Shown in pieces: positions 13,992-60,587 of a stretch of 64,000 nucleotides of DNA; position 1 is the first letter of the stretch, and the number at the start of each line of letters is the position of its first letter. The position numbers and the translations under genes are program-made. The notes beneath the pieces are model-generated. The model was not told where the DNA came from. It ran no database searches and was given only the letters and a program-made list of their open reading frames with translations. This stretch comes from Glandiceps talaboti (Eukaryota; Hemichordata; Enteropneusta; Spengelidae): positions 27,760,176-27,824,175 of the forward strand of contig NC_135550.1 in assembly GCF_964340395.1 (NCBI RefSeq). Reading direction: 5' to 3'.

Positions 13992-16900
13992 ATGGGATCT
14001 GGGGTATCGACATTTCGTACGTGGTCTGGTGAGATCACGCCACCGAAGCCAATATTCGACCAGTCACACAAAGGGTTATGGGCAGTACCTGACGAACTGA
14101 TAGATGAATGTAGGACTGATGTTCAAACTCTACAACTTTGCCATAATAATATAAGAGAGATATATGACGATACAGTTGAACTTGTTGGTTTAAGGTATGT
14201 AGATTTGAGCAACAATCAATTATCCTGGATTTCATATCAATTCTATGAGCTGCCAAACCTAACATATGTCAATTTATCGTCGAATAACTTAGAAAACATC
14301 GATGGAATTGGAATTTGTGTCAAGTTACGGCATTTGGATATTTGTAGGAACCTATTCTCAGAACAACTAGAAAGGGGTTTATTTGACCTCCATGATCTCA
14401 GGGCTCTACTTCTAGCAGACAACAACTTCAGTGATCTCCCAAGGGATATATCAAGGTTGAAACGATTGTGTCATCTCGATTATAGTAGGAATACACTTAT
14501 GTTTAATGATGAGAGTGCTCTCCCGAAGATCCCTAAAACACTTCGCAAGTTAGAATTGGTAGAGGTAGACTCACCAAATCTTGTCCTTCACGTAAGCATG
14601 CTACACGCTCTGGTTAGACATCTGACGAGCCTCGAACATTTGAACCTTTGCAACAACCGACTTGATGAACGTGTAGAGAATGATGAAAGAAGCTTCCTGC
14701 ACACTATAGTCAATCTATCCAAGCTGATTTACCTGAATGTTGAGGGCAATTGCATCAAGGCTCTGCCAGAAGCATTTGCCAGGCTTTCAAGACTCGAAAC
14801 ATGTATACTTAGTAACAATGCAATATCGAAGTTACCAAGGACATCTGTCAAGGGACTTGTAAAGGTACGCCGTTTTCATGCTGATGGAAACAACATAGAC
14901 GACATTGCAGCAATGCCATTCGAGAATACGGAACTTGCCACCCTTTCAATGATAGGGAATAATATACATCACCTTCCAAAAGAGGTTGCCCAGCCGTATC
15001 TGGGATCATTATGCCTTGACAACAATCGACTAACTGATCTCAACCATGTAGATTTTGGTCGAATGAAATCATTAAAGACCCTTTCCTTGCAAGATAACGA
15101 AATTAAAGAATTTCCACCCACCCTACATCTTGCATACAATCTCGAAATGCTTAATCTTGCTGGAAATAAAATAACACAATTTCCTGAGAATTTTGAAGCT
15201 AAAATGCTCAAAAAGTTAAACATGTCCAGAAATAACATACAGAAGTTTCCACGACATTTGTTACACTTTGAAGATGTTGACCTGTCAGGAAATTGCATCA
15301 CAGACGATGATCTCAGCGAATGCAATGGTAGTGAAACTGCTGCACTCAAGAGGATCAGTCTGATGGACAATGAGGTTGAGCATATCCCGGCTGTAATATT
15401 GAATTATCCCCAGCTCGAAGAATTACATGTCGGAGGTAACTTCATTCGGAACATACCAAAGGAACTACAAAATCTGACAAATTTGCAGTTACTGGGTGTT
15501 CAAAACAACGAGTTGGTCGTTCTACCTTCACATGTATTCCAACACCCTAGCCTGCAAGAAATTTCGGCCAAGGGAAACAGAATCCACACAATTGCCCTCG
15601 ATAACGAAAGTCCAGATCACGGACGAACACTACAAAAACTAGATGTCAGTGAGAATAGACTACGACATTTACCAAGAGAATTAGAAAACGTCAGAGGTTT
15701 AAAAGAGATTAATGTATCACACAATCAACTCTACTTTCGTCCAACAGTACTCGAAAACCTCACAAACAACCATGGAACAACCCTCTCTGTCGATGGCAAT
15801 TTGTTCAGAGACGTTACTCAATCAGGTGGAGTAAATATTCCCGGAAAAACATTTCGGAGGGGAAAGATGTTTCTGATCGGTGCACATGGTGCTGGTAAGG
15901 CTACGCTTATGCAGAAACTCTTAGAAACCAGTAAGTGGCCAGCAGATACCATTTATGAAGACAACTCAGTAAACGTCAGTGATAATGCTGCAAATGCAGG
16001 TGATGATTATGAAGAGGATTCTGAAGAGGAAGTGGATCTTCATGAACAACTCTACGAAAGAGACATGTCAGTAATGAAAACCAAAGAGAGGAAAGGGAAG
16101 TCTCCCAAGATAACCAATGAAGAAGTAGCTTTTATGGACCGTGTCATATGGCTAATAGATGACAAGACTGATATTGAAATCACATACTGTGGAGGAAAAG
16201 GAAACGTGGATGAAATTTGTCCATTTTTCTTTACCGAAAAATCTCTCTATGTCATCACGTTCAACCTTGGGCAGTATACATCATCTGACAAGGAAGACCA
16301 ACAATTCAAACAAAGTATCGGGGATTGGATCAAAATGATTTTAACTTCTATTGGTGGTGAAATATTACTAGTGCTTGTAGGAACACATTGCGAGAAACTG
16401 ACACAAGATGTACTCGAAGAGTCTTGCCGAAATATCAGAAGAAAAGTTGAGAAATTATTGGGTGACTACAACAGACAGCAATCGAAGATCCTATTGGTAT
16501 CATCGTCTCCACTGGATGTAATAACCATTGGGAAAAGTCAATATACAAAACAAATACATGCACTGAAGGAGAGATTATACAGTATCATCAAAGATGGAAA
16601 AAATCGCCTACTTCCAGCAGATGATAGTTCTCTTTTTAAAAGAGACTTTGCATCTGTGAGTATGAAGCTGCTGAAAGTTGAGAAGGTGTTATTGGAAATG
16701 CGAGACGATGATGATCCTGTGAAGAGAGTTGCTCTGACCCTGGCTCAATTTGGAGACATTTTATTGAAAGTGGGTCTCAACAAAGAAGATACAGGAGATA
16801 TCATTGCCTACTTGAAGCACATTGGGGTTCTTCAACAGTATGTCAGAATACCCGATCTAAATTCTTACATCTTCCATAACCTTGAATTTCTCAGAGATAT

Positions 16901-19236
16901 ACTTCAAGCAATGTTTGAGAAAGACCAACAAAGTATCCTCGATGTTAAGACTTTTCCTCCAGGTTATCGAAGTGTACGTGTTCCTATTATAAAGGAAGCT
17001 TTCAATAACAAAGCAATTCTATCTGAGGATGTGATCAGAGAATGTGTATTGGGCCATTTAGAACTTAAGTACGATGTGATATCACTAGTACTGGATATGC
17101 TAATTCATTTTCATATCTGCTATGAAGTGCCACCAAAAGGAAACGAAGCAGCTTTCCTTCATTCCGAAAACGACCAAACAGAAGGACCACCGAGAATAAT
17201 CCGCTTTCCAGGGTACCTCAAGAAACAAATGTATATACCTTGGAACTTCATACCAGTGTTTGAGACAAGAGTAGATTTCCCATGGTACTGTCCTCCAATG
17301 CTAAAGACAATGTTTGTGTGCATGGTCCACAACAATGTAAAGGAAGAATGGGTCGATGGGTTTCATGGTATATTCGGTGGTAGAGTTTCAGTTGTAATCA
17401 TAGAATATGAAGGTCCTCCCAAACATTTGATGATCAGGACACAACTGAATCCGCAAAGGAATTTGGAACATTCCTACAAAGTCCTAAATGAAGAAGTTAT
17501 TGAAAGGCTACAAGAACTAATCTTCCGATCGTGGCCACATTTGACACATTCTATGCATATGAAAGTCGTCTGTCCAGGTAACGTCGGATGTAGGCATCCT
17601 AGGAGCCCAATTCATCATCATTGGAAACCATACCCTAAAGATGAGGCAGGAGTTCAACAGATACTGGATGAGTGTGTACACAGGGGAGAAGGTAGGATGA
17701 AAAACAGATCATGACATACTACATATAGTTCAAGTATGAGTTTGTACCTTCCACCCATTGTCGAATACAAATCCCATATAAGGTTTTGTATGATATAAGA
17801 TCATCAACTATTTACTTGTCAATGTCTCGTTCTTTCCTTCCTTCCTTCATAACAAGTCAAACTATTGAATTAACGTAAATTGCAAATCAAATGAAAATTA
17901 AAGATTTGTACCTATTGGGATGCTCAAGTGAACACGCTAGAGTTTCACCTTTGTGCCAAGTTTGAATGAAATATATTATTACATATTATAATATGAGACA
18001 CGTGGCTTTACACAAGCGCAAGGATGAGTGGAACCAAATGTAATAGCATGCATATCCGCATATCATATATTTTTTCCTTAAAAAGTTCATATAATTTTAA
18101 CCAGTAGTTTACATGTCTGTAAAGATACAATTAGGAGATCATTGAGGAAACAGCTATTGCCAATTTTCTCTCTCAAGTTGTACTCTGGAACGAGGGTAAT
18201 AATAGTTCATTGTCATTAGATAGTTAGAAAGCTAGACAATACATACACACTCACTTAAGACAATAATTTTCATTCTGCTATGCCAATTAATTTTTACATA
18301 ATTATTATTTTACAGGTGTTGTGCCTGACCACATTATTGCACGTAAGTTATCATCATTATAAAGGCCACAAGTGGCTATAATCTTGATATATACAACCAA
18401 GTTCAAAGTTGTATAAAGTCTAATCTTGAGTCTATACTCGTAAGATCATCAATAACCTCTTCTACAGTAAGTGGCAACATTTATGTCACTGTGATCCGGA
18501 GGCGGAACGTACGAATGATCCAGTAATTAGTACATTTTGTTTTACCTCTCTTCATCTTCCCTCCTCCTGATTTGTTTAAATCGCCCATTATTACTTATGC
18601 GAAGCACATTTCATTGTACCTTCAGGAAGAATGACTGTACTCCCCTCCCCAAACTATAGATAAGGACATTCCCTAAGTATAGAAATACAATACAGTCTCT
18701 TATACCAAACACATTTCATTCATATTTCAGGACAGGAAAAAAAACTGCGTACCTCCCCAGCCATAGAAAAGAGTACTCCTTAGATAATCTTTAGAGTCCC
18801 TAGGCTATAGAAATACGATACTAACTCTAATACCGAAGTTAATGGTTTCATCCATATGTCCAGGAAGAAAAACTGCACCCCTCCAACTATAATGAATATG
18901 AACACCCCTACATATAAATCCGTTTCATTCGTACTTTTAGGGAGAATGGTTTGCGCTGCAACTGACGTCATCCATGCAAAGTTGAATCCTAAACAATGGA
19001 AGCAGTTGCAACAACACCTTGGTATTCCGGACGAAAAAGTTAAGGATCTTGCCAAAATGAAAATAAGTTCTTACAATAAATTGGGATTGTTTTTAGAGAT
19101 GTGGAGAGAACGTATCCAGACGCCTGGAATTGTTGCAACTCAAGTCAATAACCTAATAAGCGCTCTCAAAGTTATCGGGGAGACGAGTTTGGCCAACGAA
19201 ATAGCTGAACTTGACTTTGGTGAATTCACAGAATAA
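13992..19236 (+). CDS. LRR-ROC-COR-Death protein 1 (ROCO family), 3 coding exons, 1340 aa
   Basis: Exons: 13992-17691, 18316-18342 and 18941-19236 (TAA). Phases match (1,1) and all junctions are GT-AG. Residues about 40-610 are a long LRR array (for example [14 protein letters not shown]). A P-loop-like GAHGAGKA lies at 630-637, then an acidic linker of about 75 residues. After that come the ROC-like core, GTH at 797-799 (the position of the base-recognition motif), and a COR domain (about 880-1200; MRDDDDPVKRVALTL, GVLQQY, YIFHNLEFLRD). A Cys/His-rich patch (CPGNVGCRHP) follows, then a C-terminal Death domain (about 1250-1335). Order LRR-ROC-COR resembles MFHAS1; ROC-COR-Death resembles DAPK1. 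The P-loop Ser/Thr is Ala, and the switch-II Asp is replaced (TYCGG). The N-terminus MGSGVS fits an N-myristoylation signal. It is probably a cytosolic or membrane-tethered sensor or adaptor for cell death; that role is inferred. A ninjurin gene follows on the same strand. Confidence 0.87.
18316..18342 (+). CDS. 27-nt microexon of LRR-ROC-COR-Death gene 1
   Basis: TTTTACAG precedes and GTAAGTTA follows. It joins G from exon 1 to read GVVPDHIIA plus one base of the next codon, in frame with the Death exon. The paralogue has a 24-nt counterpart (GVPDHAVA) at the same position, which supports this very short exon. It forms the hinge between the ROC-COR block and the Death domain. Skipping it keeps the frame. 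Confidence 0.85.
18600..18945 (+). repeat. degenerate tandem copies of a splice-acceptor segment
   Basis: Four related segments each carry TTTCATT-like sequence, a pyrimidine-rich stretch, an AG and GGAAGAA- or GGAGAATG-like sequence. The AGs end at 18625, 18730, 18863 and 18940. The last is the acceptor used for the Death exon; the other three look like decoys or decayed acceptors followed by CCCTCC and ACTATA-like sequence. Confidence 0.5.
18941..19236 (+). CDS. Death-domain exon of LRR-ROC-COR-Death gene 1
   Basis: A single exon of 98 codons. It carries the Death-fold pattern: W..LQQHLGIPDEKV in helices 1-2, LGLFLEMWRERI in the central helices, and LISALKVIGETSLANEI in helices 5-6. This is the classic W, L-W and AL..IG..DLA signature (here SLA) of Death domains in adaptors and NLR-like proteins. 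It ends DFGEFTE-stop. Death domains mediate homotypic assembly; the partner is unknown. Confidence 0.88.
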
Positions 19237-19694
19237 ACATTGGTCACAGGCAGTTCCTTGTCGCATATTAAAGATGCATTCGTCTGAACTGTGTGGAGTA
19301 TACGTAGACGAGCAAAGCACTAATCAAACTACACTACATCTCAGACCACTATAAATAACTGTTCCTACAGTGGTGTGAGACTACATGCACTACTGATTAA
19401 AAGTTTCAAGCAAATAAGGCATGCAAATGACATTCAACATCGGTTTAATGATGACTACGATGACGATGAATTCAAATTCAATCCTAGCACAGTGACATGA
19501 TATGGATATATGGCGCTGTGAATAACTGTAATCACAATATGTTAATGACACAACTTTGATACATTTCAAAGAATCTCATACCGTGTACATGGTACAAAAC
19601 ATTGTTTATCCGTTTCCACACTGGTATAATACGACGTCTGTCACGATATATCTAGAAACGTGAATATAGTCCTACAGTGTGATGATTTTACATG

Positions 19695-19700
19695 AATAAA
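19695..19700 (+). terminator. poly(A) signal of LRR-ROC-COR-Death gene 1
   Basis: AATAAA followed by a T/G-containing stretch, 459 bases after the stop codon. It indicates that the Death-domain gene and the downstream ninjurin gene are separate transcripts. Confidence 0.55.
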
Positions 19701-20144
19701 ACATATGATGTGACACAGAAAGTTTCTGAGCGTTCAATCTTGGGAAGGGAAATTGTTTCATGTACTTTGACATAAAGGCCTCATCATCGTAAACCACCCT
19801 CGAACAATGTGCTCTGGGTTGCAAAAATGAAAGCTCAAAGATAACTTACGTACCCCCCCCCACCCCACATCCATTTTCCGATCCGATATATCGGTAACCA
19901 TAGAAACAATACATGTAGTATGTTATCCCTCAGTCTGAGGGTTGGTTAATGAATATCTGAGCCAGACGGATACAACCACACTTGAAAAATAACCCACGTA
20001 TCTAGAGGATGGACTCATGTAAAATTTATAAAATACAATCTCTACTCGTGTCATTGTTTTGACCTTAATTTGGATGTAAGATACTAGTCAGACAGGCAGG
20101 TGGAAAATAAGTTATTTCTAGTTTTGATTTTTGAAAATATAATA

Positions 20145-20389
20145 ATGAATGAATGAATGAATGAATGAATGAATGAATGAATGAATGAATGAATGAATGA
20201 ATGAATGAATGAGTGGGTGGGTGGGTGAGTGAGTGTGTGAGTGAGTGAGTGAGTGAGTGAGTGAGTGAGTGAGTGAATCAATGAAAGCAATGAATGAATG
20301 AATGAATGAATGAATGAATGAATGAATGAATGAATGAATGAATGAATGAATGAATGAATGAATGAATGAATGAAAGCAATGAATGAACG
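20145..20389. repeat. TGAA/TGAG microsatellite
   Basis: A long TGAA array interrupted by GTGGG and TGAG blocks. The Ser/Phe/Ile/His open frames on the minus strand are products of the repeat. Confidence 0.92.
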
Positions 20390-21659
20390 ACTCAACCAAC
20401 GAACGAATGCATGACTGAATGGGCGGTAGGTTTATAAGATCATCGTAGTCACATTTCAAGTCGCAAGGAATGGAAGGAGATTACAAAGTTAGAAATTGTG
20501 TCTAAACATTAAAATGCTTGAAGCCCGGACACAAAAGCCTGCAGTATTGATTTCAGTTAAAGGTACTTTGTCATTGGACCATGGAGAAATGGACTACATA
20601 ACCGGTTTACAAATTGGTGTTATCGAGCAGTCGAGTTTTAAAATACATATTGTTAATTAGTACAACGTTATCGGTTGATTTTTGACACATTATCTGTTGG
20701 TCATACATCGTCGGATGATTAATATATTATATCATGTGTAGAACGGCATATACCATGGAGACTAGCATCGCTCTAGTTATTTGCTCCTGTCCTGAATTGA
20801 ATGTTTTCGTTCGCATTTCTTATCTTCAAAACAATCCTTTATTAATATGTTCACAAACCTCAATTTCGGTACATCGCCATGATTTTCCTCAATACCGGCC
20901 TTACCTGTATTACAAAAAATACACCCCCATTTGTGCCCATATTTTCGTTATTTCTATACCCTATGTATCTGTCCATGGCTAATGGGCCAGGAGGCTTGGT
21001 GGAAAACGTTTGGATTTTTTCTATCTGCCTAGCAACAACAACAACAAAGGCACGAGTCAGACAGTTAGAAATAAATCACTTTGCTGCAATGTTAAAGAGG
21101 TCAAGAGGTTATTGTCCTCACCAGGTCACCATAGATCAATAGACAGACAAAGCATACAGACATTGGGACACGAGCAAAGTTCTGAACAACTTATCAGTGT
21201 TGTTACTATTAGGCAACTACCCATTCTCAACTGTGATTGCATTGAATATATATGATGAGTAAGTGGGACAAAGGATATGTTATAATACTATATATCCACT
21301 GTCTTCAAATTGTGAAGATAAACATTGCTTGAAATCTATTTGGCACATTGTACCACAGATAAGTATGTGTTAGTTATCTGTGATTGTACATAGTTTAAAT
21401 GCGATTAAAGATACTCCCCACCTCCACCCCAGTCCGTAAAGCCATGAATTGGACGGACATTTTAATACCAGCTAAATGAGGTACAATGTATGACAGACTG
21501 GATATCGTTTACTCACTGTAACAAAGGAGTGTGTTTAATTTGTAGAACAGCGTAGATAGGCACCCTTGCCAAACTTTATCATTTCCGTCACACAGTCTGT
21601 CAACAGGTTGCGGATTTTAAATGCTTGACCACAACCATCTTTGCTAGAGAATTTACAAC

Positions 21660-22199
21660 ATGACAGAAAATCAAATCCATCCCGTGCCGGAGCGCACTGG
21701 TATAAGGGTTTCAGGGAGAATGGGCTATGGTACGTACAGTATGAAGGGGAATGTATGGCTTCCGGAGAATCGACTTACACGCAATGTTCTTGGAAAGCTG
21801 TTTTGTTTAGATCCCAAAACAATATTTTTAAAGTCTGCAACAGACAATGGGTTAGTTGGACCGGAAAGTGGAGGCAGATTTCCGATTGATAAACTGGACC
21901 CCTCGATAGAATGGCAAGTTGAAGGAGAACCATCGAGAGAGGTAGGAAGGTAGCTCAACTAAATGACACAATGAAGAGAGGGAGAGGGGATGTTATATTG
22001 CCATGACAGACAGTGCAACAGCAGGGCCACAGACAGAAATATGAAATATATAAGTGAATGCAGTGAAACATATTACTTTTTTGCTAATGCACTTATTTTA
22101 TAGATTTATTTGTTGTCGAATAAACAAATTTGATTGAATGTTGTGAAATATCCTTGCCATTCTCTATGGAAATCTGCTTGTGAGTATGTGTTTTTTTGT

Positions 22200-22230
<31 letters not shown>

Positions 22231-22272
22231 AGGTGGTGGTGGTGGTGGTGGTGGTGGTGGTGGTGGGTGGGT

Positions 22273-22330
<58 letters not shown>

Positions 22331-23024
22331 AACGAAATTTTCTCCCACACAATACTGTAAGATGTACAGTAAAAAATCTCTACAGGATTTTCATTCCCAT
22401 CCAAAACTCGTCATTTTTTACATTGATCAGCACTTCATATATCTTATGTAATCGATATGGGAGATCAAAGTTCTTCCAAGATAACAGTGGAAACTTTTCC
22501 TTGTGACGATATGATTAAGCCAATTATATTTTTAATACCGTATACATCATCCATAAAACATTATATGATATGTATATTTTCTTTCTCAACAGTATGGATC
22601 ATTTAATGCATACACCAGTGTAAAAACAGCTGCTATTGGTATTTTGGATTTCAGCCTGTTTGTGACACACATTGGAATGCTGATAACTTTGACTATATAT
22701 TGTTATCCTGCCGTAAGTGATGGACTAAGAGAGTTCACCATTGCTGCAGTGAGTATCTGCCTTGCATTGGAACTATTTACTGCAGTTCTACTTTATTTGA
22801 TCGGAATTGTCGATATTGACCATGGAGATGGCCAAGAAACTTTGGTGGCAATGTTCACATGTTGTAATCGTGATCTATACAAACAGACTCTCAGGCATTG
22901 GAATAATTCCGTAACCTTTTCCGTGTGTTTGTTGATGGCCTCTACTCTAGTGACTACTGTTTCCTATGTGGTTGTTTTGGTCCAACAATCAGCTGAGGCC
23001 GACGATGACTTATGCGACATTTAG
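21660..23024 (+). CDS. ninjurin-family membrane protein 1, 2 coding exons, 237 aa
   Basis: Exons: 21660-21941 and 22593-23024 (TAG), GT-AG, phase 0. Exon 2 is a ninjurin domain. An amphipathic stretch (FNAYTSVKTAAIGILDFSL) aligns with the NINJ1 segment VNHYASKKSAAESMLDIAL and keeps Lys105 and Asp113, equivalents of NINJ1 K45 and D53, which bridge neighbouring subunits. Two transmembrane helices follow (about 142-168 and 201-224), separated by a VDIDHGDGQE loop and a CC pair. NINJ1 polymerises to rupture the plasma membrane in lytic cell death and was first described as an adhesion protein. Exon 1 encodes about 94 residues (motifs SGRMGYG, ENRLTRNVLG, FCLDPKTI) absent from mammalian ninjurins as I recall them. 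There is no signal peptide; by analogy with NINJ1 both termini would be extracellular. The gene lies 2.4 kb after a Death-domain gene on the same strand. The start is the first ATG in frame. Family assignment is strong; the lytic role is inferred. Confidence 0.85.
22198..22329. repeat. compound TTG/GGT/GT microsatellite in the ninjurin 1 intron
   Basis: TTG units, then GGT units, then a GT run, all inside the 651-bp intron between the two exons. Open frames through it are artefacts. Confidence 0.92.
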
Positions 23025-23311
23025 CGACTGCGGGATCGACGATTCTGGGGAATTGATTGAAAACTGTTCGTGTATCACGTAACCAGTTAATTACCTCCCT
23101 CGCCGATCGTTTTCGGCCATTATAGCTTAGGAAATACTGGTGAAATTAAACAATATTACTTTAAAAAAACAACTGTATGTTGACTCACTCACTTTTCAAA
23201 GTTAAAATATTCCAGGACAACTCCAAGTATTTTATTTGTACTTTTGAGCCGTTGAACCCCGTTTAATACCGAGACATAGTCCTATTTCAGTGCTTTGCAT
23301 TGTCAGTGGAG

Positions 23312-23317
23312 AATAAA
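23312..23317 (+). terminator. poly(A) signal of ninjurin gene 1
   Basis: AATAAA about 290 bases after the stop, followed by a T/G-rich tract (TTTCTCTCTGTGTATGTG). Confidence 0.6.
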
Positions 23318-23446
23318 GTAAATTCTTCAAGAGTTTCTCTCTGTGTATGTGAGTCAAGGACTCAAACTAGTCATGTGCTTTGATTAAACGATAACGGAAT
23401 GACAGGTTTCCATAGTCTAATATCTACATTTATGAGCCTGTATTTA

Positions 23447-23646
23447 GGGAATGTTCAGTAATTACGGGGCGGGGAACAAAGGGGGGGGGGGGTCACATTT
23501 TACAAATTGGTTGTTGCATGTATTGGGTATAGGAATTAAAGGAGCGTCACATTTCACGTTGACTCATTGTGTTATCTAAGTTTGCATTAGTTTTATGATT
23601 TTGGCATCTCACCACAACCACCCTCCTTGTAATTACTGAATGCTCC
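23447..23646. mobile_element. 200-bp MITE-like inverted-repeat element
   Basis: The left end GGGAATGTTCAGTAATTAC pairs with the right end GTAATTACTGAATGCTCC, giving imperfect terminal inverted repeats of about 20-25 bp. The interior has a G run and no coding capacity. A related sequence lies at 36193. Confidence 0.65.
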
Positions 23647-26600: not shown

Positions 26601-26802
26601 AACTGTAAGCAACGATACAAGTTGACCTAAAGTTATCATCACTTGGTCACGGTATAGACGCCGTTTTATAACCATAAACGATGTTGATTAGAATATGCTT
26701 AAATGTCGTCCTACTAGAGGAACTGGTGTTAAAAGAAAGCACAGTCTTTTCATCATACATATGATATATATCTTCCGACATTGGCTGCTCTGTGGGAGAC
26801 CT

Positions 26803-27114
26803 TTATGTCAGCAATTGATACATATAAATAGAAAAGGAAGAGTTGGGTGTTAAAAGTTCACCAGGAATCTGGTTAATGTTATTTGTTGCCATGGGGTTGT
26901 CTAACACAACAGCCAAACAACCTAAAGTAAGTTGTATTTCCAGTCGAACAGAGTGACATGGGCTGATAATAGGTTCAAAGCCCTTGAGTGCAGTAGAAAT
27001 TGATAGAGTAACATCACACGTAGGTTTATTCAGCAATACCAGGAAACACAACACTATGGAAACAACAGACACACGCGACACGAATGATGTCGTTGCAATA
27101 GTCAATACCAGCAT
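26803..27114 (-). other. unidentified open frame with a hydrophobic segment
   Basis: 103 codons on the minus strand with a hydrophobic N-terminal stretch (LVLTIATTSFVSRVSVVSIV) followed by a mixed tail. Upstream the frame runs into a GAT/GGT simple repeat. I recognise no family and see no supporting splice sites. It could be a decayed membrane-protein exon or chance. Confidence 0.15.
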
Positions 27115-27151
27115 CGTTGTTGCCAGGAAAACGCCATCATAAGTACCACAA

Positions 27152-27323
27152 GCATCATCATCATCATCACCACCGGCACCACCACCACCACCACCAACAC
27201 CGACACCAACACCACTACCACCAATATCATCACTATCGCCACTATTACCACCAGAATTACTACTTATACCACTAAAATATCATCATCATCATCATCATCA
27301 TCATCATAACCACCACCACCACC

Positions 27324-27374
<51 letters not shown>

Positions 27375-27390
27375 GTCATTCATCATCACT
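27152..27390. repeat. CAT/CAC trinucleotide microsatellites
   Basis: Runs of ATC/CAT and CAC triplets, partly mixed, with two long pure stretches near 27280-27375. Non-coding. Confidence 0.92.
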
Positions 27391-28171
27391 CATAAATTGT
27401 TCGTGATGCATCAAAATATGGATTGTTTCCATACTTTACAGACTGTAATAGATGCAATCGTTAATATTGGGTGATGCCAAGTATGAAGTCGTTATGATTA
27501 ATGTTTAATTTCCAAAGATTACATTTTGCAATTTTTCAGAGTTGGAATAAAACCTGGCAAACTTGCGCAATGCATTGCAATATATCTATCTTGACTAGAC
27601 ACCGACACCTTAGATAACCTTATGAACTGTAACACACACTCATACACATGTGTAACGTAATAATATCGCCGAAATGACCAAACACAGTGTCGAGTTACTC
27701 TTTGGTCAGTCATTCTACACTTTGTTAATTTTCCCAGCTGATAATGGTCGAATATCATGAACACGTTCAAATCGATGCATTATGGGCTTAGTCTCATTAC
27801 TCTAGCTGAGTGGTGGGTTATCTACACAGCAAACCACCACCACTTCCTCCACTGCACCTCCAATACTGCGTTAACATTACACACTCACCACCACCATCAC
27901 CTTCACTGTACTTCCCCATTGCATTACCACTAACACAGTCATCATCACCACTACGTCATCGACATCATTACAACCATTTCACCAACATCTCAACCATTAT
28001 ATCATGATTTTACCTCCTCCTCACATTAATTTTGGTGAACTCAATCACCAATTAAAAAAACAAAAAACTCATTCACCAATTGAAATAGTGCTGTATGATG
28101 ATTGCTAGCTTATAATTGTCCAAACTTTCACGCTGAAACATATACATGTAGCTTTTTAATATGTAAGCGAT

Positions 28172-28739
28172 TTAAGACTGGGATCAGAATTTAAGGCAGG
28201 AGGGCTGGGAAGAATTGTTTTGGTCAAATTTTTTTCGCAGCCCCCCCCCCCCCCCTTCGCGCTCTCAAAAAAATGAAACCAATAATTTTCGTAGCCCCCC
28301 CCCCCCTCTCGGCAAAACATATTTTTATGTGTTATTATACAGTAACACCCCCCCCCCCCACACACACACACACACACACACTTCAGAGGTGGAAATCAAC
28401 TTCAGCATCCATACATAACAATGAGAGATTTCTTTACAAATATACACGGGCTTTGTGAAAAAGGTGTCACATTGAGCTGTATCCTATACCTGTCTACAAT
28501 ACTCCAATTTTACTCAAGTTAATACATTATTATGCAACTGTATGGCTATATTACCTACACGTTAAGTTATATTTTGGCAGAAACATACTTTCGCTTGGCT
28601 ATTAACTGCCCCATAATTAAATGTACGGTAGGTAAATGAAGTGTCCAATTTTGCAAAGTACAAGGTAAACGACTGATCCTGAGGTTTGAATGTTCAAGAA
28701 AGTCTCCACAGAGAGTGAGGGGGACAGAGAGAGAGAGAC

Positions 28740-28776
<37 letters not shown>

Positions 28777-29066
28777 AAGACAGAGGAAGGCATACACAAA
28801 TACATTAGCATGGCTGTCACCAACTCATTAATGAATCTAGGTTTTATAAAGTATTGCGGCGATGCTGCGAGAATTATTTTTAAATTTACTCTGTAAATGA
28901 CCGCTCCTGAGGTTTAATTTGATTCAAATCATGAGCAAAATATTTCGCCCGCCCCCCTTTCAGACCATCAGAATTTTCGCAGCCCCCTTTGAACCCTAAA
29001 TTTGTTCATGCCCCCCCCCCCCATTTCTCCCGAGGACCCCTGCCGTAAATTCTGACCCTAGCCTAA
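28172..29066. mobile_element. 895-bp foldback element with imperfect inverted termini
   Basis: The left terminus contains GATCAGAATTTAAGGCAGG and the right terminus carries its complement, CCTGCCGTAAATTCTGACCC, inside flanking matches of about 38 bp. The interior repeats a TTTTCGCAGCCCCCC-like motif (near 28230, 28290, 28975) and has C runs, a CA run and a GACA microsatellite. No coding capacity. Possibly a composite of nested small elements. Confidence 0.6.
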
Positions 29067-29154
29067 TAAGTAAATTTCTGGGTTTTTTCTTAGGAACCTT
29101 TCTTCATATAAACTAACATGGTCGGTTTAGAATTGTAAATGCAGTACACAGAAT

Positions 29155-32100
29155 ATGGGATTCGGAGCTTCTAAATACACTACTGAAACTACTGAAATCG
29201 TCGGACCAGAGCCAGTATATTCAGCAAAACATGGAGGGCTAACAGCATTTCCTGATGAACTCATCGATGAATCTCGGACAGACATCAAAACTGTAAACCT
29301 ATCCAGCAATTTGATTCAAGAAATAAGCGATGAAATTGTTGAACTTACTGGCTTGAGACATGTAGATCTTAGCAACAATCAGCTAAGGTGGATTTCGTAC
29401 GAATTCTTTGAGTTACCATACCTCTCTCATGTCAATCTGTCGGCCAATAATTTGGACAGACTCGATGGAATCGGAACAGCTAGAAAGCTGCAATATCTGA
29501 ATATTAGTCAGAACCGATTTTCCATTCTCTCTGGAGAGTTATTTAAAGTTGTTCGCCTTTTGCATTTGCTGGTGGCTGACAACAACCTTTCTCAATTTCC
29601 TGTTGAGATTCGTAGACTACAGCAACTACGAAGTCTTGACTGGAGTCGTAATGGTGTCGTGTCCATCAACGAGGGAGTATTTGCAACAATGCCAAGAACT
29701 CTAAAGGTGTTAAAACTTGGTACAGTAGACCTTGAAATGTGTGTGCTCAATCTGAGTGTTGTACAAAAGATTGGCACACGAATGAAGTTTCTTGAAGAGC
29801 TAGATTTCAGCAACAATCATATGGACAAAGACGTAGTAGAAGGTGGACAGGGTGCCTTGCATACAATTGCCCTTATGACACGTCTCAAATACCTAAATGC
29901 GGAAAACAATGATATCAAAACTGTTCCTGACACCTTTGGAAACCTAGTACAACTTAGAGTATGCATCCTTAACAATAATACCATAACAAGTCTACCAGTA
30001 GCATCTTTCAAAAACCTCACAAGAATGAAGCGTTTTGAAATCGACAACAATGCTGTTGATGGTGTTGAAGCGATTCCTTTCAGGAAAACAGAAATGCGTA
30101 GTCTTTCGGCAAAAAACAATAGCATAAGCTATCTTCCGGGACAAGTAGCTCAACCACACTTGGAATCTTTAAATCTCGAAAATAATGAACTGAAAGTCAT
30201 CGACCATGTTGACTTCAAGCGAATGTCAAAGTTAAAGACTTTGTCCCTTAAGGATAACCACATTGAGAAACTTCCAGATAGTCTATGCCATGCTAAGAAC
30301 CTGGAACATCTTGACTTAGAAGGAAACAAGATAGCACATATTCCCGAAGACCTAAACCTGAAAAAGCTTGGAAGACTCAACTTGTCAAACAACAACTTGG
30401 AAAGCCTTCCCGTACAGATCCAACGCTTCAATAGATTGGTGGATGTTGATTTGTCCGGGAATAAAATCACTGATACGGACCTTCAAGATATCTCTGGTGA
30501 TGAAAATGAAGCAATGCATCTAAAAAGGATAAGCCTAAAGGACAATGAGGTTGAATCCGTTCCAGAAATGTGTTTCAACAGTATTCATCTTGAAGAATTG
30601 GATATTGGTGGCAACAATGTGAAGGAGATACCTGAACAAATACAAACGCTGAAGAAATTACAGTCTCTGAAAATAGAAAACAACGATATCATAATAGTAC
30701 CTGCACATGTCTTTAAGCATCCAAGTCTTCAAGAGCTTGCTGCCAAGGGGAACCGAATTCATACGATTTCCATGGATACTAAAAGTCAAGAACAAAGTAC
30801 TTCACTGCAAACACTGGATGTCAGTGACAACCGCTTACGGTCTGTCCCAAAGGCAATGGAAAGTCTACAAAGCTTGAAGAAGGTCGACGTTTCAGACAAC
30901 CAACTATACTTCCTTCCTTCTGTGCTTGTAAACCTTGAAGACACATCCGGAGCCGAAGTGTCTGTTAGTGGTAACTTGTTACGAGATGTTCCAAAGTCTG
31001 ACGATGCAAAGACCTTGAAGGAAATGGTTAGAGAGATACAGAACAAACCTGAAGCACCTGAGCTCTCTAAGATTAGAAGGGGAAAGATATTCTTCATAGG
31101 CAAACAGGGTGCTGGTAAGGCTACATTGATGAGGAATCTCCTTGCTCTCAGTGACAGACCACCTGGAGAGTTCAAACATGGAGAATCTGACTTGACTGTA
31201 GAGGCCAATACCACAGATGATACAAATAAAGGCGAAGAAAATTCCCAACATTTCCAAGAGGGAAATGAAGTCTCTGAACATCAAGTGACAGAAGATTGTC
31301 AAGATGTACACATTATTAAGAAGAAAGTCCTAGATAAGCTAGCATTTATGGATCGTGTCATTTGGCCAATTGAAGATGATATTGATATTGAACTTACATA
31401 TTGCAGTGGAAGTGGCAACGTGAACTTGGTGTATCCACTCTTTTACACGGAGAATTCGTTATACGTCCTTACAGTGAATCTGCTTCAGTACAAACCATCA
31501 TCAGATGACAGCTTCCACCAATGCATAGGATTGTGGATCAAGGATATCCTGGCTTCTATCGGTGGTGAAGTTTTGGTGGTCATAATTGGAACCCACACAG
31601 ACAGACTAACTAAAGTTAAGTTGGAAGAAGCTTCTGGTAGCATCAGAATTAAAGTGGAGAAATTGCTCAGCGAGTATCAACGACGACAATCTAAGGCATT
31701 GCTGATATCGTCTTCTCCGAAAGATATAATTACAATCGGGAAGAACATAGATGACAACCAAATGTACGCGTGTAGAGATAAACTTTGTGAAATTGTGAGC
31801 AATACACAGAATCGTCTGCTTCCCGGTGTTGATAGCTCTCTGTATAGAAATGGTGTTGCACCTTCAGTATTTAAACTTCTACAAGTTGAAAAACTATTGG
31901 TGGAAATGAGGGATGATGATGATCCAATTAAGAGAGTTGCTCTTACCCTGTCTCAATTCGGAGAAGTTCTAGAGAAAGTCGGTCTCAAGACAGAAGACAC
32001 AGGAGATATTATTGCCTACCTGAAGCGCATCGGCGTACTTCAGCAATATGTCAAAATATCCAGTCTAAAAGGTTATATCTTTCATAACCTCGACTTTCTC

Positions 32101-34393
32101 AGAGATGTACTTCAAGCGATTTTTGAGAAATCTCAGGACAGTTTCCTTGACGTGAAGAGCTTTCCACCAGGTTACCGAAGTGTACGTTTTTCAGTGGTGA
32201 AGGAAGCCTTCGACAACAAGGCAGTTCTATCAGATGACGTCATCAGAGAATGTGTGCTGGGTCATTTGGACTTGGATGACGATGTAATATCATTGGTGTT
32301 CGACATGCTAATTGGATTCAATATCTGCTATGAAGTACCAGCTGAAGCTAACAAAGATGCCTTCCTTCATTCTGAAGGTGATGGTGATGGAATCCTGCCC
32401 AGAATACTTCGATTTCCGGCATACTTGAAAAAAGCCATCAATAACCCGTGGAACTTCAAACCAGTTTTGGAAACCCTCATAGAATTTCCATGGTATTACC
32501 CATCGAGACTTAAAAGCGTCCTGGTCTGCAACATACACAAAAACGTAAGGGAAGAGGGCATGGACAGTGCACATGTTGTATTTCAAGGGGTCGGTACAAT
32601 GATAATACAGCAGAAAGGACCCCCCAAGACACTGATGTTAAGAACAGTTATGGTCAATGATCCAGAACACACATTCAGTGTCTTGAATGGTAACCTCATG
32701 GACAGTTTGCGAGAAGGTATTAAAAATACATGGTCCTCCCTGACGTATTCCATTCACATGAGAGTGATATGCCCAGCTGGTGTCGGATGTAAACATCCAT
32801 ACAGTGCAGTACACCATTCCTGGAAATCATACCCCAAGGATGAATCAGAAGTCTCACAGATTATGAATGAATGTAAATATAGGAAAGAAGGTAAGCAACC
32901 AATTCTGCTATGGGCATTTTGAAAAGTGACAGAATCAATTGAAAAGAAGAATCCAATTTTCTCTAAACTGTCAAATTTTACAAAATGTTACCAGCACATT
33001 GTAGTTTGTTACAACACACCTTTATGTATCACTGCGGTGGGCTTGTATTTTGTCATCACACAGAACTGATGACTATTTAAACTGAAACCATTTTTGACAT
33101 GGCTAACTGGTAAATTTCCAGGTAAAGGCCGCCTACGCAGTGATATCAAGTGTATGAACATTGTATCGATATTGTCTCATAAGTTTACACGACATTGCCC
33201 TGTACTAGTACGACTAACGATACAGTTTATAATCAGAACAACCAAACAATTGCACCTAGTTTCATAAGGTGATCCTGGTGAGTGGTCAGATTCTTTATGT
33301 AAACATCTAGTTCATGTATTAACAATATTACAACTTCGAGAAAATACCTATCAAGTACAAAATGTCGAAGTTGTAAACTACAGCTGTATAGACTGTTGAA
33401 CAAAGTGGTGTCGTTGTTAACTTTGATCTTTTTTTACAGTTACCATTTGTATTTCATTACATACTAAATAAGTATCTTTAATATTAATAAGTTGTCAAAC
33501 TCATCTCCACAGGTGTACCGGATCATGCTGTCGCCCGTAAGTATGATCACATGTAATTTACACTAACGGGACCCAAAATAATATTTCTAAAGTTAAGAGC
33601 CACAAAACACTACTTTACTTGACAAAAGCACGTGCAGTGGTATATGTATTTGGCTGGGAAAATAAGGTGTTTTTCCCTGATACATGTCTGTTTGTAAGTC
33701 CGTTGTTTGGTAGGTAGGTAGGTAGGTAGGTAGGTAGGTAGGCATGTAGGTAGATCTAGGTGCACGTAGGCAGGTAGGCAGGCAGGCAGTGAGTGAGTGA
33801 GTGAGTGAGTGAGTGAGTGAGTAGTAGAGAGTTTGAATTTAGGTAGCACAACAGTACTTTTTTAAAAAGATATAAGCTATTTGATATTTGGATCTAGACT
33901 TTGATGCAGCTGAGTAACGTATTCACCGAGACTCTTACTTCACACGCTAAAATCGTTAATGGTATAAAACTATAGATGTAACAATTTCCATTGTGGAAAA
34001 GATGACAGAAATGGGCAACTTTGTACTTTGTCAATGTTAGTCCATTTGGGGGGTATCTCATGGGATCTCTTGTTCCTCACAGAAAGAATGGTGTCAACAG
34101 CCACAGATATTATCAGTACCAAACTGGACCCACAAAAGTGGAAGGACCTGGCACCACATCTTGGTATTCCAGAAGAGAAAGTCAAGATAATTGAAAAACA
34201 AAGAGACATTGATATGAGGGAAAAACTAAAGCTGCTGTTGGGGAAATGGAAAGAACGAATCCAAACACCCGCCATTGTCAAACCACAGGCAGAGAAGCTG
34301 ACCACGGCCCTTAAAGTCATTGGAGAGCGAGACTTAGCAACAGAAATATCTGACCTTGATCTTGACAATTTGGAGATGGCAATGCAAGAATGA
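29155..34393 (+). CDS. LRR-ROC-COR-Death protein 2 (ROCO family), 3 coding exons, 1356 aa
   Basis: Exons: 29155-32890, 33513-33536 and 34083-34393 (TGA), same phases as paralogue 1. Domain order is identical: LRRs at about 40-625, P-loop-like GKQGAGKA at 649-656, an acidic linker, a ROC-like core with GTHTD from 812, COR ([21 protein letters not shown]), the [10 protein letters not shown] patch, and a Death domain near 1255-1345. The P-loop again ends in Ala instead of Ser/Thr, and the switch-II region reads TYCSG. The N-terminus MGFGASK resembles a myristoylation signal, but Phe after Gly is disfavoured. Identity to paralogue 1 is high in COR (long runs such as [12 protein letters not shown]) and low in the acidic linker. 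The gene repeats the arrangement of the first cassette, with a ninjurin gene 2.6 kb downstream. I see no canonical poly(A) signal close after the stop. Function inferred as for paralogue 1. Confidence 0.87.
33513..33536 (+). CDS. 24-nt microexon of LRR-ROC-COR-Death gene 2
   Basis: CTCCACAG precedes and GTAAGTAT follows. It encodes the hinge GVPDHAVA together with one base from exon 1. It is homologous to the 27-nt exon in gene 1 and one codon shorter. Confidence 0.85.
33709..33822. repeat. GGTA and GTGA microsatellites in the last intron
   Basis: Tandem TAGG, CAGG and GTGA units inside the intron that precedes the Death exon of gene 2. Confidence 0.9.
34083..34393 (+). CDS. Death-domain exon of LRR-ROC-COR-Death gene 2
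   Basis: 103 codons after a CCTCACAG acceptor. Clear Death-domain signature: [30 protein letters not shown] and [17 protein letters not shown]. It ends EMAMQE-stop. This copy fits the consensus better than paralogue 1 because it keeps the DLA of the last helix. Confidence 0.9.
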
Positions 34394-34418
34394 TCGAACG
34401 ACACAAAATGGCAGTTTG

Positions 34419-34528
34419 CATACATACATACATACATACATACATACATACATACATACATACATACATACATACATACATACATACGTACGTACATACG
34501 TACGTACGTACGTACATACATACATACA

Positions 34529-34560
<32 letters not shown>

Positions 34561-34597
34561 CTAGTATGGCAGACAGACAGACAGACAGACAGACAAA

Positions 34598-34673
<76 letters not shown>
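34419..34673. repeat. CATA, GACA and AT microsatellite block
   Basis: CATA/CGTA units to about 34557, GACA units at 34570-34596 and a pure AT run at 34600-34673. It starts about 26 bases after the gene 2 stop codon, so it falls in the 3' UTR if transcribed. Confidence 0.93.
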
Positions 34674-34675
<2 letters not shown>

Positions 34676-34777
34676 CATCCAAGTACTAGTTACGGCATTT
34701 CTATATATATCATTTTACGAGTGACTATGAACTTTTGCTAAACATTTCGTATCACTGAATCCCATTATCAAAACCAT

Positions 34778-34911
34778 GGGGGGGGGGGGGTACTCCAATA
34801 GAAAGGTATACGGGTATGTGCTGCCAAAATGGATAACTTTTCCACAGCTAAACATGGGTCGACTTTTCGTTGGAAAATCTAGAATCAAAGAGTACCACCT
34901 CCCCCCCCCCC
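34778..34911. mobile_element. small foldback element with G/C-run ends
   Basis: Begins with a G run and GTACTCC and ends with GAGTACCACCTC and a C run, so the ends are complementary over about 12-15 bp. The 134-bp interior contains GGTATACGGGTATGTGCTGC. Non-coding. Confidence 0.45.
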
Positions 34912-35154
34912 AGAGGAGTGAATCAAAACCTGTGAGCATGACTAATTTCCATATATCATGTGGAAGTTGACAAATCGTGTAATCTGAAGAGAAAGTATTG
35001 AATACTAACACTATATCCCATAACTTCCGATATACAGCCTGTCTATGTCGCTGGATCTGTGACTATACACTATCATTCGTTTTTTACTAAAACTGCTTAC
35101 AATACTATTAAATACAATAATTTATAAGAGACATAATTCGCCAGTTTTTCCTGT

Positions 35155-36125
35155 TTTATGGATGCAACGGAAGCATTTGATAGGATGAATCACTGGACCA
35201 TGTTTAGAAAACTGGTCAATAGAAAAATTCCTTCATTCATAGTTAGAATATTGCCATTTTGGCATCGTAGTCGCTGGGCTTCAGTGGAATCGACCCCTTT
35301 AGTGTTATTAATAGGGTTCGTCAATTTGCTGTATATGTGGATGGAGTTAGTAAAAAGCTCCAGTCAGCAGGAGTAAGGTGTCACGTGACTGGCAAAATTG
35401 CCAACCACCTGTTTTATGCGGATGACCTAATACTGATTTATCCTTCAGTCAAATCTTGTTTAAGATTTGTGAACAGCATGACATTCTTTTCCACACTATA
35501 GAAACTGAATGTATGCTTGTTTATTTTGGAAACAGGTTCGGATCCCTATTATGTTTATTGTACGGGAAGCAATTGAAGTTTTGTAACCTCTAAAAAGTAC
35601 CCCGGGTATATTATGTCTTCCACTGGGGATGACGAAGTTTATATGCGGAGGGAGCTTAAGTCTTTTTATGCTAGGGCAAATGTTATTTGTTCGTAAATTT
35701 AGTCATTGCTCCGAGGAGGTGAAATGCACACGTTTTAGAAGTTGTTTTTTTAATACAAAGTGTATTGTTTAAATGTTCGGTGTAACTACAGTACTAGGAA
35801 TACAGTGCGGTTAATCTTTGTCCTAAGAGTTGCAGTCAGCATTAGTAATATCTGTGTAACCAGAAGTGCTTTGAATTTTACATCATTCGCGCCACCGAAA
35901 GCTGTTGTATACATTTACAACAGACGTATTCTAGAGAGTAACAATACTTTAATTCGAATCTGCATTGACTCGGACGCATACATTTTTTGGCCATTATAGT
36001 AGGAATGGCATGTACAGTACAAGGTAATTGCTTGTTTAATATTATTCTGTCCTTCTTTTTTGTGTATTTGTATGATTTTATATTTTTATGGGACATCTTG
36101 CTGGCCTGAAATAAAGACATAATAT
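35155..36125 (+). mobile_element. decayed LINE (non-LTR retrotransposon) reverse-transcriptase fragment
   Basis: Frames broken by stops and shifts still show RT-like blocks: MDATEAFDRMNHWTMFRKLV (the D.. .AFD.V.H type block), VNLL/VYVDGVSKKLQ, and LFYADDLILIYPS near 35412, the YADD catalytic motif. RRELKSFYAR follows in another frame, then RVAVSISNICVTRS. The fragment ends with AAATAAAGACATAATA-like sequence typical of a LINE 3' end. It is 5'-truncated and non-functional. Confidence 0.75.
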
Positions 36126-36192
36126 TTTTAAAAAGATCAATTTTGGTATGACACGCTGGTGTACTAGCAGTCCATGCTCGAAAAGCCGGGCT

Positions 36193-36290
36193 TAGGGGAG
36201 TCTTCAGTAATTACAGGGGTGGGGGAAATCAGGTCGGGGCCTATGTGTAAAATGTGACACCCCCCTCTGATTCCGTCTTGCTAAAAATTA
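36193..36290. mobile_element. partial relative of the 23447 inverted-repeat element
   Basis: Contains TTCAGTAATTACAGGGG, matching the terminus at 23447, and AAAATGTGACACCCCCC, the complement of an interior segment of that element. I see no right terminus, so it is truncated or diverged. Confidence 0.45.
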
Positions 36291-36499
36291 CCCTTCCTCA
36301 ATTTTCTTTCTCTAAAACATGACCTCCCCCTGTTAAAAAGCCCATTAAAATAGTGAGAAAAAACATGAGTTAAAAATGCTATTGGAAATGGAAAAGGATA
36401 GGCTGTCCAGAATCATCGGTAAGGACTTAATCCCATCGCCGCTACCATGATGACAGTTTCTAAAGGTATTGGCTATTTCTCACTACTTCCACCACGTGA

Positions 36500-36711
36500 T
36501 GTGTGTGTGTGTGTGTGTATGTGTGTGCGTGTGTCTCTCTGCCTGTCTGTCTGTCTGTCAGTGTGTGTGTCTGTTTCTGTCTGTGTACGCATGTCATATG
36601 CACACTGTATACACAGCTACATACAAAGCTACGTATACATACACACACATACATGCATACATACATACATACACACACATACATACATACATACATACAT
36701 ACATACATACA

Positions 36712-36740
<29 letters not shown>
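36500..36740. repeat. GT, CTGT and CATA microsatellites
   Basis: GT run, TCTGTCTG units, then a CATACATA array. Tyr/Ile/His and Val/Cys open frames on both strands are repeat artefacts. Confidence 0.92.
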
Positions 36741-36743
<3 letters not shown>

Positions 36744-37008
36744 ATTGTGTCCGTCAGCCAAACTACAAAAGTCCATTCTATTTTTGCACTTCATGGTACA
36801 TGTAAATGATTGTGACATCATAGACATTGGCGACAGGAACAATCTTGGGGGCGCGTGTCGTTGTAACAACACAAAACAAAAGGTTACCAACACTGTACAT
36901 TTACTTTCTCAACTTCCACACGATAAGGGTCTGCTCTGATTGCTGCGAGTTCTACAGTATCCACTGTATTTGTTTGTGTCACTTAATTGATCAATCATTC
37001 AATATACC

Positions 37009-38677
37009 ATGGCAGATCTAATGGAAAATAGTTCACAGTTGCAGTTGCCGACAGCTCTAGAGACAAAAGGTCGCAATATTTCTGGAAGAATGGGCTATGG
37101 GGAGTACAGAATGAGTGGCAAAATATGGTTGTCAGAGAATCGACTTACTCGCAATGTTCTTGGACGAATATTTTGCTTGGATCCAAAGACCATCTTGTTG
37201 AAGTCAGAGATTGACAATAAGTTAGTGGGGCCAACAGAGGGAGGAAAATTTTCCTTGGATAGACTGGACCCTACCATTGTGTGGAACGTAGAAGGAGAAC
37301 CAGCTAGAAAGGTGGGTGTGTTGAAATGTATTTTCACTCTAATACCAGAAGGTTTGCTGCTAAATTATCCAGTTCATGGTTGCGTATTCTTTTGTGGTCA
37401 GGTGTTTAAGAATAACTGTCGTACTTTTGTTTTCTATTCTTGTATTGTTGAAACTTTGAACACAGCTTACACAATCAGTCAGAGATTTTCTAGGAGACGT
37501 ATAGTCCATATCTATTGCTTGACAACGGTCTACGTTTCGTATTTTACAAACTTTAACAGTATTAAAAGCTTAAACATACATATTATGTATAGACAAAGAC
37601 AGTAATTAAAAGCTGTAACGTAAGTCACAAATTTTCGAATTTGTTGGGCAATGGATCGCAGACTTGGTAACCGAAAAGCGATGATACGATGATAGACAAC
37701 CAATTATAATCCATACAGAAACTTCCATGTAAAGTTACCTTCCAAGCATTTGGGAATCAAATTGTCGTCTTGTACATGATACGTTTATTATGATGCTTGA
37801 TATCAAAACATTTAAACTATATCGAACAACGCCTGAAAAATCAGCTGTACAAACAGTGACGGTGTAAAGGAAACATCTACGTGATAATATCAGTGGCTTG
37901 AATATCATGGCACTTGTTTATATGAATCAATCGCGATTTATTTACATTTTAACTTTCTTTGAACATGAAACATGTATAACGCAATGCACATTATCGTGTC
38001 AACGTGTAAGTAAGGCCAATAGTGCCATAACGCTGTAGTCTCTGTTTTATCATTTATACCAAGTTCACACATGTCAAAGTATATACATGTACATAGACGC
38101 ATACTGTTTTTAATTTGCAACCAAATGACATGGTCAAATTTAGAAGGTTGGGTTATATGAATTCTGACATAAGTCAGAATCCCTCAATTCTCAGGGTAAA
38201 CTGGCGGACAGGTGGTTCTGTAATAAAATTGAAACTAAAGTTTTCTTTTCTGTTTTTATTTCTCAACAGTATGGTTCATTTAATGGATTTGCCACTATAA
38301 AGACAGTAGGAATGGGGATATTGGATTTTAGTTTATTCGTGACTCATGTCGGTATGTTAGTTACTCTTCAAGCCGTTGGGTTGGCTTCATCAATTACAAC
38401 GAGTTTAGAAGTATTGACCACATTAGCCGTATCCATCTGCATCGTTCTAGAAATAGTCATTGCAGTTTTCATTTATCTGGTCGCGATAGTTGACCTGGAC
38501 GAAAAAGATGGACAAGAAACTCCAATAAAAATGTGTACTTGCTGTGGTGTTGATGTGTGCAAACGATCTCTGAGGAGTTGGAACAATATTATTACCCTCG
38601 TGGTTATGGTTTTAGCTGGTCTGTCGCTTATATCAATCACACTTTACATAATTATTTCGATTCTGTCGCAGTCATGA
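37009..38677 (+). CDS. ninjurin-family membrane protein 2, 2 coding exons, 236 aa
   Basis: Exons: 37009-37311 and 38270-38677 (TGA), GT-AG, phase 0, the same plan as paralogue 1. Exon 1 codes for a 101-residue N-terminal extension with the shared blocks SGRMGYG, ENRLTRNVLG, FCLDPKTI, LVGP and VEGEP. Exon 2 opens with YGSFNGFATIKTVGMGILDF, keeping Lys112 and Asp120 (equivalents of NINJ1 K45 and D53). Two transmembrane helices follow (LAVSICIVLEIVIAVFIYLV and the C-terminal VVMVLAGLSLISITLYIII) around a VDLDEKDGQE loop with a CC pair. By eye, exon 1 is about two-thirds identical to paralogue 1 and exon 2 about half. The protein ends shortly after the last helix and lacks the acidic tail (AEADDD) of paralogue 1. 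It is probably a plasma-membrane protein able to oligomerise; a lytic role is inferred from the family. Reading past the exon 1 donor gives a spurious longer frame ending at 37605. Confidence 0.85.

Positions 38678-42869: not shown

Positions 42870-60587
<17,718 letters not shown>

Follow-up and report, generated by a model that had tools for sequence, protein, structure and literature searches.

A window of 64,000 nucleotides (nt) from the hemichordate Glandiceps talaboti (C2:27760176-27824175, NC_135550.1; C1, C2, C4, C6, C9, C11, C12 and C40 are labels for contigs of this 590-Mb genome) contains two genes for a protein with leucine-rich repeats (LRRs), ROC and COR domains and a Death domain, each followed on the same strand by a gene for a ninjurin, a member of a family of membrane-rupture proteins. 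We refer to the LRR-ROC-COR-Death protein as LRC and to its copies as LRC_A and LRC_B (in the window) and LRC_C and LRC_D (elsewhere on C2). LRC_A (1340 amino acids (aa); all four window genes lie on the + strand) is encoded by a large exon at window positions 13992-17691, which specifies an MGSGVS start, the LRRs and, at residues ~622-1225, the ROC-COR region, by a 27-nt microexon at 18316-18342, and by a Death-domain exon that includes the stop codon at 18941-19236. NINJ_A (237 aa) begins 2.4 kb downstream; its exon 1 (21660-21941) encodes an extra N-terminal domain, a predicted beta-grasp, and its exon 2 (22593-23024, including the stop codon) encodes the ninjurin domain. In the second pair, LRC_B (1356 aa) comprises a large exon at 29155-32890 (MGFGAS start, LRRs, and ROC-COR at residues ~641-1237), a 24-nt microexon placed by the splice model at 33513-33536, and a Death-domain exon, again with the stop codon, at 34083-34393. 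NINJ_B (236 aa) lies 2.6 kb downstream, with exon 1 at 37009-37311 (the extra N-terminal domain, the sequence of which was used for the AlphaFold model described below) and exon 2, including the stop codon, at 38270-38677 (the ninjurin domain). All junctions in these four genes have GT-AG sites and keep the frame, and the ninjurin junction is in phase 0. An earlier note on this DNA had described both the two same-strand pairs and an exon plan common to them (large exon, microexon and Death exon, then a two-exon, phase-0 ninjurin), and the splice models and domain searches agree with that description.

In searches against Pfam, the LRRs of LRC_A and LRC_B scored far above the cut-off, and their Death domains reached 29.2 and 38.0 bits (E 1e-6 and 1.8e-9) against a cut-off of 22.6 bits for PF00531. 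The Roc (E 3e-4 and 0.0098) and COR-A (E 0.012 and 0.016) matches fell under the Pfam cut-off, yet the ROC-COR region appears to be real because a profile of the four LRC ROC-COR regions matched, over 471 columns (99.8%, E 4e-28), three MFHAS1-like LRR-ROC-COR proteins of the same genome. With a ROC domain followed by a COR domain, the LRC proteins are, as judged from these matches, members of the ROCO family. The ninjurin domains of NINJ_A and NINJ_B scored 14.2 and 18.5 bits (E 0.041 and 0.002), under the PF04923 cut-off of 26 bits; evidence for their membership in the family is given below.

Linkage and duplication of LRC genes and ninjurins

Linkage was scored inside this single genome. 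A ROC-COR query gave seven matches, namely the four LRC genes at near-full cover and three weak, partial ROCO relatives; LRC-like genes whose ROC-COR region is split may escape this query. LRC_C (C2:4914341-4920216, - strand, 1336 aa) and LRC_D (C2:24072519-24077266, + strand, 1329 aa) are spliced in frame, with no microexon in either model. An exon-2 ninjurin query gave nine matches, made up of seven genes (one of them in two pieces), which we call the divergent ninjurins, and a match on C12 at chance level (E 0.47) that is omitted from the count; an exon-1 query independently recovered the same seven genes and nothing else up to E 1. At loci C and D two ninjurins lie on the opposite strand, head-to-head with LRC, the nearer ~4.7 kb away start to start (at locus C, where the reading frame is broken, the distance is measured to the earliest conserved codon) and the second at 8.1 kb (C) or 7.8 kb (D). 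Each of the four LRC genes has a divergent ninjurin within 5 kb (the nearest copy at locus C being broken), and no more than 8.2 kb separates the start of six of the seven divergent ninjurins from an LRC gene; on the 10-kb proximity score that the earlier note had put forward, run here inside this genome, both sets count as linked. The cassette layout in that note carried over in part: the linkage extends to all four LRC loci, whereas the same-strand order does not extend beyond the window, LRC_C and LRC_D each being divergent from two ninjurins. A stretch of ~80 bp, 79% identical between loci C and D, lies in the head-to-head gaps (C2:4924211-4924288 and C2:24068606-24068687) 0.65-0.8 kb from the nearer ninjurin and is possibly regulatory.

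That the divergent genes are ninjurins is indicated by several comparisons. PF04923 was matched by all six intact exon-2 domains with E values of 1 or below (best 2.1e-7), the copy on C9 exceeded the cut-off with 30.7 bits, and an exon-2 profile, when aligned against six canonical ninjurins encoded in this genome, reached 96.1% (hhalign, E 3.1e-9). On the strength of the six matches and the hhalign result we rejected a spurious ninjurin call. The real relatives of the exon-2 profile in the PDB were NINJ2 (0.0013) and NINJ1 (0.019); receptor rows at E 0.036 and weaker were dropped from this list, as were, from the PDB profile lists, two top designed-repeat proteins whose shown stretches scored ~2-5 bits each.

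In the scans made here, proximity to listed Death matches was seen for LRC-linked ninjurins and not for canonical ones. A genome scan with PF04923 returned 20 matches (19 canonical ninjurins and the C9 copy), and a scan with PF00531, in which 150 of 199 candidates were scored so that Death counts are lower bounds, returned at least 148 Death matches, with the LRC_A Death exon not among the matches listed. Of the 148 listed matches, three are found 20 kb or less from one of the 26 ninjurin positions; all three are LRC genes, and widening the distance to 500 kb adds no others. Within 500 kb, none of the 19 canonical ninjurin matches has a listed Death match, and none of the 145 non-LRC Death matches listed has any of the 26 ninjurins; we rejected a general ninjurin-Death proximity in this genome on the first of these counts. 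A random position has a ~1% chance of lying 20 kb or less from a listed Death match and a ~0.02% chance of lying 10 kb or less from an LRC gene, figures that assume independent copies, which gene copies are not. The canonical ninjurins include a tandem array of 14 matches in ~112 kb (C1:1684615-1796869), with no LRC match in the 30 kb read there. Death matches are spread over many contigs and partly clustered, for example at C4:23.34-23.44 Mb, C11:11.05-11.10 Mb and C6:14.93-15.31 Mb.

Both gene families divide in the same way. LRC identity, computed like that of the ninjurins over aligned columns and hence slightly shifted from the gene-model comparison, is 53% between A and B (52% in the gene-model comparison), 65.5% between C and D, and 41-43% between AB and CD. 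For the ninjurins the values are 52% (A-B; 53% in the gene-model comparison), 63% (A-C9), 55-57% (intact C versus D copies) and 39-44% (AB versus CD). A tree of full-length ninjurins set A, B and the C9 copy apart from the C and D copies with support 1.0, and a tree of LRC ROC-COR regions, with the three ROCO relatives as outgroup, joined C and D (0.999) and set A and B apart (0.83). In an exon-2 tree with seven canonical copies as outgroup the divergent ninjurins formed a single clade (support 1.0). The AB/CD split common to the LRC and full-length ninjurin trees speaks against independent insertions in the window and upholds the earlier claim that the pairs arose by block duplication with their linkage kept.

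The duplication in the window is old, because synonymous sites are saturated (proportion of synonymous differences, pS, 0.75 or more for LRC A-B and for the four AB-CD comparisons) and DNA similarity between the two blocks is restricted to coding stretches; the saturation also led us to reject a recent or mis-assembled duplication. LRC C-D, the sole LRC pair for which selection is measurable, is under purifying selection (dN 0.22, dS 1.10). Allelism of loci C and D was likewise rejected, since they lie 19 Mb apart on one contig and their LRC proteins share 65.5% identity. The genes stayed paired while their order and orientation changed, from a ninjurin downstream on the same strand (A and B) to a divergent arrangement (C and D). 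The safe reading is of a single ancient linkage that, if the pairs were block-duplicated, persisted as LRC duplicated three times and the layout changed at least once. Such linkage could have been inherited neutrally, an accidental pair of neighbors with unrelated jobs having been block-duplicated several times. We regard this as possible though on balance doubtful: block duplication by itself suffices for the copies, the trees agree, all four LRC genes found sit on C2 and one ninjurin is solitary on C9, but the pairing outlasted both the rearrangement and the synonymous saturation between A/B and C/D, and no such linkage is seen for canonical ninjurins or for the remaining Death matches listed.

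Sequence features of LRC proteins and divergent ninjurins

All four LRC proteins begin with MGxGxS, which reads MGCGIS in LRC_C, with Cys at position 3, and MGSGIS in LRC_D. Gly2 and Ser6 after the initiating Met are the N-myristoylation consensus, and this start pattern suggests that LRC is myristoylated and hence tethered to the membrane. The ROC motifs GKS, D.GG and THAD are all kept in LRC_C and LRC_D. In LRC_A and LRC_B they are degenerate (GKA, with the P-loop Ser/Thr replaced by Ala, and the Asp of G3 lost), and the G4 motif of LRC_A is THCE, with Glu in place of Asp. The P-loop, G3 and G4 are GTPase motifs, an intact set of which is usual among ROCO proteins and is not used here to define the family; because these motifs are degenerate, LRC_A and LRC_B may function poorly as GTPases. 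Newly seen in this analysis are the MGxGxS start, the degeneracy of the ROC motifs in LRC_A and LRC_B, and the extra N-terminal ninjurin domain.

The closest PDB structures to the LRC Death profile were THOC1, FADD and RIPK1. LRRs followed by a ROC-COR region homologous over the aligned columns are common to LRC and MFHAS1/MASL1-type ROCO proteins, whereas the Death domain and the myristoylation-type start are LRC additions. For the three MFHAS1-like genes of this genome, the open frame that was read encodes no Death domain, and we found none of the listed Death matches within 500 kb and no ninjurin match closer than 9 Mb on their contigs. DAPK1 is like LRC in having a ROC-COR followed by a Death domain but differs in having a kinase and ankyrin repeats and being without LRRs (PMC6320773). 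ROCO and Death domains are also treated in a paper on Aplysia receptors and adaptors (PMC9334734).

For the ninjurin domain, residue numbers of human NINJ1 were placed via the NINJ1 sequence, a placement consistent with the NINJ2 alignment. In the intact divergent ninjurins the equivalent of K45 is Lys in six of six and that of D53 is Asp in five of six; NINJ_A and NINJ_B have both residues, eight apart. The intact copy at locus C has Val in place of this Asp, and so does one canonical copy (L006). In NINJ1, K45 and D53 form a salt bridge, and the K45Q and D53A mutants, which cut or abolish lysis, are dominant negative (PMC10307626). These mutants, together with the intact copy that is without the Asp and the at least 19 canonical ninjurin matches in the genome, would suit an arrangement in which divergent ninjurins under the control of LRC inhibit or modify canonical ninjurins instead of acting as rupture effectors; since both Lys and Asp are kept in five of the six intact copies, we consider this distinctly unlikely.

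Unlike NINJ1 and NINJ2, the divergent ninjurins carry a conserved N-terminal domain of ~80 aa on an exon of its own, the junction falling within a few residues of the start of the ninjurin domain. Pfam gave no match to it in any of the seven ninjurins searched, a profile of it retrieved only chance-level kinase rows from the PDB, and no relatives were found in the viral and prokaryote contigs scanned. An AlphaFold model of the domain of NINJ_B (pLDDT 80, pTM 0.66) was searched with Foldseek, and most of the 50 matches listed were ubiquitin-like (best E 5e-3, TM ~0.47), with Ras-association domains also among them; the domain is thus predicted, with modest scores, to be a ubiquitin-like beta-grasp. 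A model of exon 2 built from two sequences had a pLDDT of 58 and was excluded from fold searches.

The divergent copies also differ from canonical ninjurins in the greater length of the loop that separates the final two helices, and their α1-α2 stretch is more hydrophobic than in most of the canonical copies measured. The hydropathy peak after the Lys is 1.72-2.25 in the six intact divergent ninjurins versus 1.06-1.35 in five of the six canonical copies to which the comparison was confined; the sixth peaks at 2.04 (L008, in which the motif was unmatched, was left out). In NINJ1 the stretch after this Lys is amphipathic. The raised hydropathy would allow an N-terminal domain that faces the cytosol.

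Proposed function of the pair

Starting from the domains, the splice plan, the linkage of the copies found and the matching family history established above, we give an even chance to the proposal that LRC and its neighboring ninjurin are inherited together as a two-gene unit acting in programmed cell death or innate immunity. LRC would be a membrane-tethered LRR-ROC-COR-Death switch in which the LRRs sense, the ROC-COR region sets the state and the Death domain recruits a partner. The inherited domain of the neighboring ninjurin would oligomerize and break or remodel the membrane, and its extra beta-grasp domain would couple it to the LRC pathway, speculatively by docking directly on LRC. We infer the sensing, the rupture activity and the single pathway shared by both products, and with them the joint action as sensor and membrane effector that the earlier note had suggested; linkage alone could be inherited. 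An elaborated form, which we think unlikely, has the ubiquitin-like (Ras-association-like) domain of the ninjurin dock on the ROC domain of membrane-anchored LRC, so that rupture would be direct and independent of gasdermin, and would recognize two subtypes, one with intact GTPase motifs and two divergently transcribed ninjurins and the other with a single ninjurin downstream and a ROC whose motifs are degenerate.

Several observations weigh against the proposal of a two-gene death or immunity unit. The linkage evidence comes from a single genome and consists of gene anatomy and sequence, and the independent linkage events could number only one, spread by block duplication. The rooted exon-2 tree joined B to C/D, with weak support (0.65), and because of this the root of the divergent ninjurins is unsettled on exon 2 alone. 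Frame breaks in both exons of the nearer ninjurin at locus C give it the look of a pseudogene, the intact copy there being the one at 8.1 kb that is without the salt-bridge Asp. No LRC match was found in the 40 kb read around the C9 ninjurin, 20 kb to each side. Foldseek gave no match to the N-terminal domain at E 0.001 or better. Helices 1 and 2 of NINJ1 are described as extracellular (PMC10307626), and were the divergent ninjurins to keep this topology, their N-terminal domain would lie outside and make no contact with LRC.

The pair might also have nothing to do with cell death. Ninjurins were first described as adhesion proteins, and a ninjurin acting in adhesion or membrane organization with LRC as a scaffold would be compatible with functions that are read here from sequence. 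MASL1/MFHAS1 has a role in erythroid differentiation via Raf/MEK/ERK, and a part in necrotic cell death via ERK is likewise ascribed to it (PMC6320773); given the latter, the Death domain of LRC and the conservation of the NINJ1 filament residues, we view an adhesion function as very improbable. Overall, we favor the two-gene unit over inherited linkage, with confidence that stands at about evens, because the layout changed while the pairing held and because the remaining listed ninjurins and Death matches show no such linkage.

Fungal NWD2/HET-S, plant NLR pairs and bacterial defense operons are sensor-effector gene pairs in which a switch gene is likewise linked to a gene for a partner or membrane effector; they differ from LRC and ninjurin in using other protein families, and none is known to use a ninjurin. 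If the proposal is right, animals would gain this gene-pair layout. According to a 2025 review (PMC12547243), the activation of NINJ1 is poorly defined. The linkage of a set of ninjurins to a single kind of Death-domain switch makes that switch a specific candidate for the upstream partner, and the additional domain that these ninjurins carry would let the means of their control be tested directly. Our literature search, with subscription papers mostly outside its scope, found nothing joining ninjurin with ROCO and nothing combining NINJ1, ROCO and death domain. The available portion of a review retrieved for ninjurin, death domain, leucine-rich repeat and invertebrates does not describe LRC-ninjurin linkage, literature on ninjurin in echinoderms held nothing on the pairing as judged by title, and no ninjurin was among the best 10 of 653 matches in literature on hemichordates.

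Flanking sequences and the mitochondrial contig

To the right of the pairs, at window positions 47954-60621 (- strand), are exons of a PP2A B56 regulatory subunit, with PF01603 matched in three pieces (one query being six letters off at its start). To the left, at 4150-5930 (+ strand), are exons that resemble FBXO28, an assignment that Pfam did not confirm: of two pieces searched, one gave no match and one a sub-threshold match to another family. Between the Death exon of LRC_B and NINJ_B, a fragment at 35137-35500 (+ strand) looks by eye like a reverse transcriptase, and Pfam returned nothing for 35137-35373.

Three copies of COX1, spaced 15,435 bases apart, lie on the mitochondrial contig C40, which is probably an assembly concatemer. 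Read by eye, the COX1 gene itself is free of AAA, AGA and AGG codons, the AAA (3) and AGG (1) that were counted preceding the conserved start, and it has four ATA codons, most of them at positions that are usually Ile. This one gene points to an enteropneust hemichordate as the probable source of the window, by comparison with two acorn worms. In Balanoglossus mitochondria AUA is reported to encode Ile and AAA and AGG to be missing, and in Saccoglossus AAA is reported to encode Lys (PMC3121625).

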